DNA of 6,653 bases from Pseudomonadota bacterium (GTDB taxonomy: Bacteria; Bdellovibrionota; Oligoflexia; Oligoflexales; Oligoflexaceae): NCBI GenBank assembly GCA_029556045.1, contig JAKQGS010000141.1, positions 1-6,653 of the forward strand, written 5' to 3'. A program made the position numbers and the translations under genes. This document shows positions 2,799-5,436 of the stretch, piece by piece; the stretch's first letter is position 1, and each line of letters opens with the position of its first letter. The notes beneath the pieces are model-generated. The model was given only the letters and a program-made list of their open reading frames with translations. It searched no databases and was not told the origin of the DNA.

Positions 2799-3206
2799 AT
2801 GTCATTTTTTCAATGGGATGCCCGATTTGATATCGGCGTTAACGAAATGAACGGTGAGCACAAGGAAATCATGAATCTCATGAATCGCCTCTATGAACTG
2901 AATGAAAAGCGTGCTCCCAAGACAGACCTGGCGACAGCGATTTCCAACTTGGCCACCTATACTTTGAAGCATTTCAGTGATGAAGAGGCTTTTATGGCGT
3001 CCATCAAATATCCGGATCTGGAAAAGCATAAGACCATTCATCAAAACCTCTTGACGAACCTCAAGCTGCACCAGGAGAAATTTGAAAAAGGATCCGGTGT
3101 TGTCGAGGCAGATTTTTTTGCTTTTTTGAAGCTATGGCTGTCGGCCCATATCCAGGGCATTGACATGAAATACGGCGATTACGTGAAACAACGCAAGGTC
3201 GGTTGA
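2799..3206 (+). CDS. Bacteriohemerythrin (single-domain hemerythrin)
   Basis: A 135-residue stand-alone hemerythrin that binds O2 reversibly at a non-heme di-iron centre, with proposed roles in oxygen storage, delivery or sensing in microaerophilic and magnetotactic bacteria. All seven ligands are visible: His21 (in GEHKEIM), His58 and Glu62 (HFSDEEAFM), His77 and His81 (HKTIH), and His117 and Asp122 (HIQGID). The N-terminal WDARFDIGV segment is typical, and the length is that of the family's four-helix bundle with no fused sensor or signalling domain. There is no signal peptide, so it is cytoplasmic. AAGGAG at 2784-2789 lies 9 bases before the ATG and fixes the start. It is divergent from ubiB and convergent with the small exported protein, so it is probably monocistronic. 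A functional link to the neighbouring quinone-related gene through oxygen metabolism is possible but unsupported. Confidence 0.95.
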   Translation: MSFFQWDARFDIGVNEMNGEHKEIMNLMNRLYELNEKRAPKTDLATAISNLATYTLKHFSDEEAFMASIKYPDLEKHKTIHQNLLTNLKLHQEKFEKGSGVVEADFFAFLKLWLSAHIQGIDMKYGDYVKQRKVG

Positions 3207-3226: not shown

Positions 3227-3348
3227 AGAAGTCATTTATAAGGCCCAGATGCTAGGCGTCGAGGAGCGGCGGCGCGGAGTTTACGTCGGGTAAATGAGCA
3301 CCGCCGCGACGAAGGCAACAACGCAGATGGGGTTTAGAAATGGCATCT
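3227..3348 (+). repeat. Palindromic element, family A, copy 2 (A2)
   Basis: Outer arms at 3227-3246 and 3329-3348 are inverted repeats with 15 of 20 positions complementary, 17 if G-T pairs are allowed. The core carries a hairpin: GCGGCGG at 3266-3272 pairs with CCGCCGC at 3301-3307, and TTTAC at 3280-3284 with GTAAA at 3290-3294. The same layout and conserved blocks (GCTAGGCG, AATGAG, ACCG, GCAACAACGC) occur on the minus strand in A1. The CTAG sequences at its edges give minus-strand TAG stops at 3252 and 3347, so a minus-strand gene entering the element terminates inside it. It lies just after the hemerythrin stop and at the 3' end of the convergent gene. The family seems familiar to me from other bacterial genomes, but I cannot name it. 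Confidence 0.75.
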
Positions 3349-3787
3349 AGAAAATCGTCTTTGATGCGGTCAACATCATGGACGATTTTTCGAAATTCGG
3401 TCGCCACGAAAATCGCCATGCCGGGGAGGACTCCGTTGCGGCCCAACGGGCCGATGACGATGGAGTTGTCTGGCCGGATTCCTCGCAGGTACGGGTTGAA
3501 ACTTCGAAAATCCCGAGCCCCAGCCCGAGGGATGCTCCCACCAAAGCGCCCTGTGCCACCTTTTGGCCGGACTTGTCGTAGTTATCCTGCGCCGCGATGA
3601 TTAATCCGGAAAATAAAGCCCCAATGCCGATGCCATAAAACATGTCCTTGAACACCACAGCTCCCCCGATGGAGTCGCAGGCGATGTCCTTGGCCATCAG
3701 CGGGGGGTAGGGAAGGAGCAGGGATCCCGCCAGAATCCAGCCCAAACCACCGTTGTGGACATTTTTCATTGGGGTCCTTTGTGGCAT
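3347..3787 (-). CDS. Small exported glycine-rich protein, probably frameshifted
   Basis: I do not recognise the family. The uninterrupted frame encodes 146 residues. Residues 7-32 form a signal-peptide-like segment ending PLMA, with possible cleavage before KDIAC. Two glycine-spaced hydrophobic stretches follow, YGIGIGALFSGLIIAA at 51-66 and GALVGASLGLGLGIF at 80-94, resembling glycine-zipper membrane segments. After about residue 103 the composition turns unnatural (SGQTTPSSSARW). The next frame over the same DNA, from about 3476 downward, reads plausible protein: RPDNSIVIGPLGRNGV, then GMAIFVATEFRKIV and HDVDRIKDDF, continuing into element A2 to a TAG at 3252. One missing base near 3474-3490 would join the two halves. 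Whether this is a true mutation or a sequence error cannot be told. Two starts are possible: the ATG at 3787 with AAAGGA 7 bases before it, or the ATG at 3769 with AAAGGA 5 bases before it; the latter begins the signal peptide neatly at MKNVHNGG. Confidence 0.65.
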   Translation of the reverse strand: MPQRTPMKNVHNGGLGWILAGSLLLPYPPLMAKDIACDSIGGAVVFKDMFYGIGIGALFSGLIIAAQDNYDKSGQKVAQGALVGASLGLGLGIFEVSTRTCEESGQTTPSSSARWAATESSPAWRFSWRPNFEKSSMMLTASKTIF

Positions 3788-3869: not shown

Positions 3870-4520
3870 ATGAATGACCGGCTAGCCACGATCCTGCTGA
3901 CGGGTGTTTTGTTGGGGGGGTGCCAGCGCAAGACTCCGTCTCTGCCCCCCTCTGCCCCGTCTCTGTCCGAGACCCTCGCTCTCTATGCGGCTCCCATGAA
4001 CGCCATGGCCTTGGAAGGATCGTGGCAGAGCGACTGTCTGAATGGACGGGATGACGACAGCTACCGCAAAACCTGGCGCATTCACGGTCACGATGTGGTG
4101 CTGGAGTGGGTGATGTATATCGAGGACCCCTGCGAGATCCCCGGGCACACGGTGCGCTGGGTGGGTCGATGGGAGTTTGGGGCGGAGGAAACCCTGCCAC
4201 AGGGCGCCCGGGCGATCGACTTTCATTGGTCGACGTTAACCATTGAGCCGGAGCACGATGACGTGGTGTCTCTCTTTAATGAAATGAACTACTGCCAGTT
4301 GCAAGGTCCATGGCAAAAAGGGGTTACCCGCACCATCACACAAGGACCCTGTTATTTCCCCACAGGCACGTCGTTATTGCAAAAGGACCTGGTTGCGCAA
4401 AAAGATGACCTTCTATTTTGGGGTCTCGATGCGGTCGGTCCGGATGATTTACCGGCGGAGCGGCCGAAGGGGGTTAATCCGGATCCCTATCGCAAGACCA
4501 CCGCACACGATTGGCAGTAG
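3870..4520 (+). CDS. Predicted lipoprotein of unknown function
   Basis: I do not recognise the family. The ATG at 3870 is chosen because it gives a textbook lipoprotein signal: basic N-terminus MNDR, hydrophobic core LATILLTGVL, then lipobox LLGGC with Cys18 as the lipidation site; GGGA lies 5 bases upstream. An earlier in-frame TTG at 3849 would add seven residues before the signal and is less likely. The 216-residue product continues with a Pro/Ser-rich linker (about 22-32) and a domain that starts LEGSWQSDC and alternates Trp/aromatic and polar residues (TWRIHGHDVVLEWVMY, WVGRWEFG, AIDFHWSTLTIEP), suggesting a small beta-barrel or lipocalin-like fold. Cysteines 56, 88, 142 and 161 in the mature part could form two disulfides, as expected for a periplasm-facing protein. 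It is divergent from the small exported protein and followed 30 bases later by hairpin element B1. Confidence 0.8.
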   Translation: MNDRLATILLTGVLLGGCQRKTPSLPPSAPSLSETLALYAAPMNAMALEGSWQSDCLNGRDDDSYRKTWRIHGHDVVLEWVMYIEDPCEIPGHTVRWVGRWEFGAEETLPQGARAIDFHWSTLTIEPEHDDVVSLFNEMNYCQLQGPWQKGVTRTITQGPCYFPTGTSLLQKDLVAQKDDLLFWGLDAVGPDDLPAERPKGVNPDPYRKTTAHDWQ

Positions 4521-4550
4521 AACCACAGCGAATATAGCGGCAACAGTGGC

Positions 4551-4723
4551 AGGGAGAATATTGCAGGTCCGGGGGCGAGGCCGGCGCGACGGGCGGACGC
4601 TTCCCACCTCACTCGCCGCGGTCGTACTTGTGAGACTGAAGTTGCTTTTGGGGACCGCGTCTGCGCTCCGGTGGGACCCTTCCGCCCTGCTGCCCTCGCC
4701 CCCGGACCTGCAATATCCTCCCT
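4551..4723 (+). repeat. Long-hairpin element, family B, copy 1 (B1)
   Basis: Terminal arms 4551-4580 and 4694-4723 are inverted repeats with 29 of 30 positions complementary. The core also pairs: GGGCGGA (4591-4597) with TCCGCCC (4680-4686), TCCCACC (4602-4608) with GGTGGGA (4670-4676), and CGCGGTC with GACCGCG around a loop. The whole unit could therefore fold as one long hairpin. Bases 4581-4620 are identical in 40/40 positions to the inverse of 4959-4998 in B2, and 4654-4696 match 4884-4926 in 41/43. The 33-nt loop at 4621-4653 and the outer arms differ from B2. It begins 30 bases after the lipoprotein stop. No protein is conserved between copies: the frame shared in the left half shifts by one across the loop. 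Confidence 0.85.
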
Positions 4724-4852
4724 GACGTCGTTCCGCTTTCTTAGCTTACAAATCTCGTGTCTGAATCCATTCGGAGCCTAGATTGTCCGGCAATGATCCA
4801 TTTAAGAAACCAGCGCTTTGAAGCAATAAAGGTTATGTCGTTTTGCGTAAGA
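4724..4852. other. Spacer between the two family B elements, no recognised content
   Basis: About 130 bases of ordinary composition separate B1 and B2. I see no gene, promoter or repeat in it. With B1 and B2, the small remnant and the promoter region below, it accounts for the stretch 4521-5259 that lacks a confident gene. Confidence 0.6.
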
Positions 4853-5032
4853 TGCACAGAACTGCGCCCGAGGCGAACGGGAAAGGGCAGCAGGGCGGAA
4901 GGGCCCCGCCGGAGCGCAGACGCGGTTCAATGTAAGCCTTTGGCAATGGGACTGAGATCGCGGCGAGTGAGGTGGGAAGCGTCCGCCCGTCGCGCCGGCC
5001 TTTCCAATTCGCCTCGGTCTCAGTTCCATGCA
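4853..5032 (-). repeat. Long-hairpin element, family B, copy 2 (B2), inverted relative to B1
   Basis: Terminal arms 4853-4886 and 4999-5032 are inverted repeats with 28 of 34 positions complementary, both ending in TGCA. The inner halves are the inverse of the B1 halves (40/40 and 41/43), while the arms and the 32-nt loop at 4927-4958 are different. A second pairing is available: 4946-4960 (ATGGGACTGAGATCG) can pair with 5015-5029 (CGGTCTCAGTTCCAT) over all 15 positions, two of them G-T, using the right arm that otherwise pairs with the left arm. The element ends 18 bases beyond the stop of the possible minus-strand ORF. Confidence 0.85.
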
Positions 5033-5049
5033 AGATCATAGAATGTCCG

Positions 5050-5184
5050 TTATCGATCAAGTAAATTTTGCTCCCAGGTTTTACCCGATGATCGCTGCCA
5101 TTCCAGACTGGTTTCCGCCAGGAAATTAAAATAACTTTTAATATCAGTGACATAAGTGCACTCCAACTTTAATATCCGAAACAT
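5050..5184 (-). CDS. Possible small ORF or gene remnant, 44 codons
   Basis: On the minus strand an ATG at 5184 opens 44 codons ending in TAA. The peptide has protein-like composition: MFRILKLECTYVTDIKSY, then FNFLAETSLEWQRSSGKTWE and QNLLDR. The same frame stays open upstream for more than ten codons (DFWGIARVKE) before a TGA near 5230. This suggests the C-terminal remnant of a longer gene whose 5' part was lost, rather than an intact small gene. No good ribosome binding site precedes the ATG, and a candidate plus-strand promoter overlaps it. I do not recognise the family. Codon periodicity over so short a stretch proves little. Confidence 0.25.
   Translation of the reverse strand: MFRILKLECTYVTDIKSYFNFLAETSLEWQRSSGKTWEQNLLDR
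5147..5175 (+). promoter_or_regulatory. Candidate sigma-70 promoter for the DUF1737-SNF2 operon
   Basis: GTGACA at 5147-5152 matches five of six positions of a -35 box, and TAATAT at 5170-5175 matches four of six of a -10 box, with a 17-base spacer. Transcription would begin near 5182 and leave a leader of about 78 bases to the GTG at 5260. No other promoter upstream of the operon looks better. Confidence 0.35.
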
Positions 5185-5259
5185 CTCTTTAACCCTTGCA
5201 ATCCCCCAAAAATCGTTTGAATATCATGGGATTCAACCCCAAATCAGGGAGGAGATCCC

Positions 5260-5436
5260 GTGGATATCCGTCAGTTTGCCGAGTACAAAATCATATACAG
5301 CGATCGCGGACCGGGGCTGTTAACTCAATTGGTGAATGAGCACCTGCAGCAGGGGTATGAGGTTTATGGTAGTCCGATGGCGGTGGTGAACCCCAAAGAC
5401 CAGGCCATCGTTCTTTATCAGGCCGTTGTGAAATAA
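5260..5436 (+). CDS. Small DUF1737-like protein
   Basis: A 58-residue protein too short for many gene callers. It starts at GTG, supported by a strong AGGGAGGAG at 5246-5254 five bases upstream. The pattern resembles DUF1737-type small proteins: an N-terminal strand (EYKIIYSD, 8-15), a helix (GLLTQLVNEHLQQ, 19-31), then GYEVYGSP at 32-39 and a final strand LYQAVVK at 52-58. The function of the family is unknown. Its TAA at 5434-5436 shares one base with the ATG of the helicase gene, so the two are probably translationally coupled and co-regulated. There is no signal peptide or membrane segment, so it should be cytoplasmic. The family assignment is from remembered sequence pattern only. Confidence 0.65.
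   Translation: MDIRQFAEYKIIYSDRGPGLLTQLVNEHLQQGYEVYGSPMAVVNPKDQAIVLYQAVVK

Follow-up and report, generated by a model that had tools for sequence, protein, structure and literature searches.

A family of palindromic elements of about 180 bp carrying one conserved core on at least two arm types: candidate non-autonomous mobile palindromes

Hairpin elements and genes in the window

Small palindromic repeats are common in bacterial genomes, and some of them are known to spread. The stretch of DNA analyzed here (6,653 nt at its full length, hereafter the window) encodes an ABC1/UbiB-like kinase at 895-2574 on the reverse strand, scoring below the NCBIfam UbiB cut-off, and a bacteriohemerythrin at 2799-3206 (Pfam/NCBIfam). 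Plasmid matches of the ABC1/UbiB-like protein showed less than 60% identity; among the matches listed, identity reached 51-53% in two of 294 Planctomycetota genomes and 28-46% in the others. Judging from the Planctomycetota matches, lateral transfer of the gene is possible. The two copies of family B, described below, register in the window as a pair of inverted repeats, one of 46 nt (98%) and the other of 48 nt (92%), far above chance expectation in 6.6 kb.

The window harbors two families of hairpins. Family A is represented at 770-900 and 3227-3349 by two copies with common segments such as CTAGGCG...AGGAG and GCAACAACGC, which fold well below shuffled sequences (z of -8.79 and -6.67). It resembles family B, the subject of this study, in having conserved half-cores and copy-specific self-complementary arms, but its core sequence is unlike that of family B. 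No match to family A was found in viral contigs with either a 20-mer or a gapped pattern, none by blastn of one copy in plasmids or phages, and the core gave one short match in 392 Planctomycetota genomes.

Each copy of family B consists of five parts, i.e., left arm, left half-core, loop, right half-core and right arm. The features are as follows; P0002 is a related protein sequence from another contig, treated below.

4551-4723, forward strand: copy 1, whole hairpin element, 173 nt (half-core match, RNA and DNA folds, arm pairing)
4551-4577, forward strand: copy 1 left arm (arm type 1), 25/26 pairs with the right arm
4578-4620, forward strand: copy 1 left half-core, 43/43 identical to copy 2
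4621-4653, forward strand: copy 1 loop segment of 33 nt; P0002 agrees with the first 15 nt at 6/7 determinable bases
4654-4696, forward strand: copy 1 right half-core, 41/43 identical to copy 2
4697-4723, forward strand: copy 1 right arm (arm-pairing scores)
4853-5032, reverse strand: copy 2, whole hairpin element, inverted, 180 nt, 129 nt from copy 1
5002-5032, reverse strand: copy 2 left arm (arm type 2, common to P0002; arm pairing, comparison with P0002)
4959-5001, reverse strand: copy 2 left half-core, 43/43 identical to copy 1
4927-4958, reverse strand: copy 2 loop segment, 32 nt
4884-4926, reverse strand: copy 2 right half-core, 41/43 identical to copy 1
4853-4883, reverse strand: copy 2 right arm (arm pairing, comparison with P0002)
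4833-5153, reverse strand: chance ORF P0001, 106 aa, passing through copy 2

The two copies lie head-to-head in intergenic space, with an ORF ending at 4520 (forward strand) on one side and a short ORF starting at about 5260 (forward strand) on the other, and their GC content of 67% (copy 1) and 64% (copy 2) compares with 55% for the window. The alignment bears out the two inverted copies with common half-cores proposed in the initial annotation: the left half-core, given there as 40/40, extends to 43 identical positions, the right one keeps its count of 41/43, and the intervening segment of 32-33 nt indeed differs between the copies. When the core halves are aligned to each other many positions are unpaired, the same bases being unpaired in both window copies, and the two changes in the right half-core of copy 2 weaken pairing by one wobble and one mismatch. 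The core of family B is kept in sequence, beyond pairing alone. The predicted stem of copy 1 extends imperfectly to about 4536/4737.

Copy 2 is bordered at its outer ends by a possible target duplication, a direct repeat of 3 bp read by eye at 5033-5035 and 4850-4852 (TCT when written on the strand of the element); none was seen by eye at copy 1. The facing sides of the two copies carry similar 12-mers, ACGTCGTTCCGC at 4725-4736 and ATGTCGTTTTGC at 4835-4846 (9/12 by eye).

Hairpins of such high stability, lying downstream of the ORF that ends at 4520, could have been retained as a bidirectional terminator or, in the manner of BIMEs, as hairpins at transcript ends. However, no intrinsic terminator was found in 4400-5300 (0 sites vs. 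1.3 in shuffles) by a scan that takes loops of 3-8 only and is thus blind to the whole 180-nt stem, and the sequence read beside the arms of either copy contains no T-run, so that we regard a terminator as very doubtful.

Arm pairing and a third copy

The arms of each copy pair with each other and are unlike those of the other copy. With arms cut without the stem bases on the core side, 25/26 pairs were counted for copy 1 and 26/32 for copy 2; addition of the core-adjacent stem bases regains the 29/30 and 28/34 of the initial annotation. The own-arm scores of 24 (copy 1) and 20 (copy 2) were reached by none of 2000 shuffles (means 4.1 and 3.4, maximum 11), whereas arms swapped between the copies scored 3 and 3, values at chance level that 1365/2000 and 1245/2000 shuffles reached. 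The likeness of one copy's arms to the other's was also at chance, with scores of 3 for the two left and 2 for the two right arms. The claim that arms are complementary within a copy and dissimilar between copies thus holds for the window. Moreover, both copies fold well below shuffles as RNA (z of -8.83 for copy 1 and -5.87 for copy 2) and as DNA (z of -9.52 and -4.60, respectively).

A comparison of P0001 with 5.8 billion proteins yielded four candidates and two matches, namely P0001 itself and P0002, a sequence of 78 aa (E 5.6e-22) encoded on a different contig, 6009 bases long (sources ncbi, jgi and ena). The gap-free alignment of P0002 covers all five parts of the element, from one arm to the other, which identifies P0002, as far as the protein sequence tells, as a third copy of family B read through a chance ORF. 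Neither P0001 nor P0002 is regarded as the product of a protein gene, because the loop size of copy 1 puts its half-cores in a different frame combination. The bases of P0002 are known by back-reading of codons, and only those fixed by the amino acids were counted as determinable. At these bases, P0002 agrees with copy 2 at 17/22 in the left arm, 21/22 in the left and 21/22 in the right half-core and 15/18 in the right arm, while the corresponding values for copy 1 are 8/22, 21/22, 22/22 and 4/18. Over both arms, identity is therefore 32/40 with copy 2 and 12/40 with copy 1. For the left arm of P0002, identity over all forward-strand registers of the window averaged 0.25 (sd 0.09), and the top register, 18/22 at 4852-4884, is the other arm of copy 2, as expected of a palindrome. 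Since P0002 has the arms of copy 2 and not those of copy 1, at least two self-complementary arm types occur on one core.

The loops of the three copies look related: the first part of the P0002 loop agrees with copy 1 at 6/7 and with copy 2 at 2/7 determinable bases, the last part with copy 2 at 9/11 and with copy 1 at 5/11. Two earlier claims were accordingly narrowed. The arms, described as variable between copies, differ between copy 1 and copy 2 but are common to copy 2 and P0002, and the loop, described as variable, does differ between the window copies but is not arbitrary, resembling copy 1 early and copy 2 late in P0002. The initial annotation had also put at stake whether further copies exist and whether their arms are self-complementary; P0002 provides a further copy, and its arms can be paired.

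On the pair map of copy 2, 25/26 arm-to-arm pairs of P0002 can form under some choice of codons, a permissive count, and one is impossible. Among 27 arm pairs, one of which goes no further than the core edge, 14 have both bases fixed, and these comprise 12 Watson-Crick pairs, one G-T and one broken A-A. One of the 12 Watson-Crick pairs has changed on both sides, from G-C at 5012/4873 to C-G, and in the loop 3/8 predicted pairs cannot form. The mean pairing probability of the arm pairs was 0.73 in register and 0.23-0.42 when slid by 1-3 positions, on a map that, being taken from the close match copy 2, favors the register. The pairing of P0002 supports, short of covariation proof, a stem that is kept.

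Such a stem would be expected if the element were a structured RNA, or an RNA part of a transcript, under selection, with the stem kept by compensatory change and a conserved core binding protein. This would account for both the kept pairing and the conserved core, and is in line with the arm pair of P0002 changed on both sides, with another that became a G-T wobble pairing on the forward strand of the element, and with the in-register pairing probability, with the same reservation about the map. Additionally, the wobbles among the non-Watson-Crick pairs lean to the forward strand, with 3 vs. 2 on the reverse strand in copy 1 and 5 vs. 1 in copy 2, counts that are small and not independent because the copies share core positions. 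On the other hand, one of the 14 determined arm pairs of P0002 is broken and three of eight loop pairs are impossible, no Rfam 15 family reached the gathering score in the window, and the one promoter-like site in 4400-5300 (5147-5175; 0.7 expected) lies before neither copy. Furthermore, the wholesale difference of the arms on a near-identical core fits stepwise compensation poorly. Taken all together, we consider selection for a structured RNA a serious contender, albeit a somewhat unlikely one.

The third copy also bears on two explanations confined to the locus. The window copies might stem from a local event without transposition, i.e., the inverted duplication of one hairpin followed by template switching or gene conversion that homogenized the cores and remade the arms. 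The copies are inverted and 129 nt apart, template switching, as described in PMC8794818, can make and maintain perfect stems in one event, and the flanks resemble each other in the 12-mers ACGTCGTTCCGC and ATGTCGTTTTGC, at the 9/12 positions read by eye. Despite this, P0002 carries the element with the arms of copy 2 on another contig and its left flank is unlike (3/9 determinable bases vs. copy 2, 1/9 vs. copy 1); in the right flank just three bases are determinable, two of them the same, as P0002 ends there. A purely local origin thus seems improbable. A chimeric contig could likewise have created inverted neighbors, as the window appears to be the whole 6653-base contig and inverted repeats are hard to assemble, but the copies differ in arms, loop and two core bases and P0002 is an independent occurrence, so that an assembly artefact is barely credible.

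Distribution and class of family B

Searches beyond these three copies returned little. In plasmids and phages there was no blastn match at 1e-5; in plasmids at E <= 10, the best E was 0.1 and no match covered 80% of the element among the best 20 of 52 records. tblastn of P0002 in plasmids gave five records (best E 0.3). In IMG/VR viral contigs an exact 19-mer had no match, and a profile of P0001 and P0002 had 72 pattern matches, none confirmed by tblastn. Candidates from the viral contigs were rejected: the sole match of a two-half pattern was judged by eye to be unrelated sequence, and near the six matches of a right-half 17-mer the left half-core scored merely 8-18 of a possible 42.

Across genomes of 84,980 species an exact 22-mer matched once, in a Phycisphaerae MAG (L008). 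This match aligns over 31/34 columns only, at the 3' end of an ORF that, from its translation, we take to be PTS-like, and the second half is absent from that genome (best E 9.3e-6, next 0.116). In 392 Planctomycetota genomes, with at most two candidates scored in each, 19 had a match at E <= 0.001, the best at 48.2 bits; the genome of L008 ranks second with 46.4 bits, and all 20 matches listed fall in query positions 12-74, on the left side only. L008 was dropped as a family member because its score lies inside this Planctomycetota background, and it has no second half. Exact-pattern scans miss diverged copies, which makes absence from them weak evidence. Forward all-frame peptide queries gave 52 candidates, with P0002 and P0001 alone at E <= 10 and P0001 itself at just 3.8e-4, and reverse queries gave 20 candidates and no match; such queries are insensitive, and the scarcity of further annotated ORFs is a weak statement. 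By these sequence searches, family B appears to be rare in the genomes, plasmids, viral contigs and proteins covered.

Among classes of small folded elements, an integron attC site was rejected, as RYYYAAC and GTTRRRY, the R-box motifs of attC, occur on neither strand of either copy. The best Rfam hit below threshold, to the plant microRNA precursor MIR1858 on both strands of copy 1 (41.5 bits vs. a cut-off of 137), we attribute to the general likeness of long GC-rich hairpins. No tRNA was found, and no transposase was recognized among the window ORFs (Pfam on 8/38 ORFs, NCBIfam on seven proteins).

A putative mobile palindrome and comparison with known systems

Three copies have in common one bipartite core of two 43-nt halves, while the loop changes faster. 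Gradual drift does not account for unrelated arms on near-identical cores inside 0.5 kb, because P0002, whose core is about equally far from copy 2, keeps the arms of copy 2. Either the core of copy 1 entered, or recombined into, a different palindrome, or its arms were remade as a unit, we infer. We propose that the copies of family B are non-autonomous mobile palindromes, each about 180 bp long, and that the family is small and rare, a proposal that we hold to be evenly balanced between right and wrong. A transposase or another enzyme acting in trans would recognize the folded or double-stranded core and move it, entry of the core into another inverted repeat, or recombination inside one, would bring an exchange of arm types, and template switching in replication would keep or remake arm pairing; copies that come to lie beside genes would then be passive hairpins of RNA or DNA. 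Differing flanks, the intergenic place, the inverted orientation and the YPAL-like size and GC-rich internal inverted repeat suggest mobility, as would the TCT repeat at copy 2 if it is a target duplication. Against it, neither a transposase among the ORFs scanned nor a convincing target duplication was seen, and of the three known copies two are neighbors, so that copies 1 and 2 could be one local duplication. The earlier alternatives of insertion into hairpins or selection for a fold, and of recent spread or constraint, are partly supported, with insertion and fold selection both possible.

Alternatively, a hairpin might remake its own arms: the core would enter a site and its flanks would become a perfect inverted repeat. 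This would happen if the core enters palindromes only, or if one flank is the template for the opposite flank in fold-back or template-switch synthesis. Families A and B would both behave in this way. We consider such arm remaking unlikely; if arms do prove to be made on the spot, repeats would have a novel means of shaping the site they occupy. How stems stay paired while their sequence changes is debated between compensatory selection and template switching (PMC8794818). The two can be told apart with an element that combines a fixed core with different, self-matched arms, since each dispersed copy is a separate trial.

Family B is short and non-coding with inverted repeats, like MITEs, with no Pfam family in two ORFs through the copies. 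The copies observed number three, of which two lie in the window and P0002 lies on a different contig. Among bacterial MITEs, ERIC, Correia/NEMIS, RUP and others are similar in their length of about 100-200 bp and in transcripts that would form long stem-loops, as described in PMC2229807 and PMC10969869. MITEs with terminal inverted repeats and TA ends differ, as the ends of family B vary by arm type and no TA is present at the arm ends. Family B would work like a YPAL-type MITE; we do not class it as a MITE proper, as copies 1 and 2 have unrelated ends in place of constant terminal repeats (copy 2 and P0002 share theirs) and the target duplication is a candidate only. REP, BIME and REPIN sequences are comparable as inverted pairs of palindromes in intergenic space in the accounts of PMC3733652 and PMC3116915, but REPs are palindromes of 20-40 bp with an unpaired GTAG or CGTC tag, in contrast to the unit of 173-180 nt, about 180 bp, in family B. 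CGTC does occur just outside the right arm of copy 1 (4726-4729), and copy 2 lacks it at the equivalent position. On size and tag, family B falls outside REP and REPIN. REP palindromes have also been described as targets of insertion sequences (PMC1525189).

In the literature searched, by words and not by sequence, no description of the element was found, and family B is probably a new, unnamed family. By description, the nearest kind appears to be YPAL/RU-2 of Yersinia, which according to PMC2229807 is mobile and palindromic, measures about 168 bp, contains inverted repeats and has targets that span or adjoin dyad symmetry. The two are alike in size (173 and 180 nt in family B), internal inverted repeats, an intergenic place and a composition that is not A+T-rich (67% and 64% GC). 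They differ in that YPAL is abundant in its genomes and associated with target duplications of 3-26 bp, whereas family B is known from three copies. Targeting of dyad symmetry of the YPAL type would leave every copy with a matched pair of arms of its own, and insertion into palindromes, if confirmed for family B, would widen this targeting beyond Yersinia.
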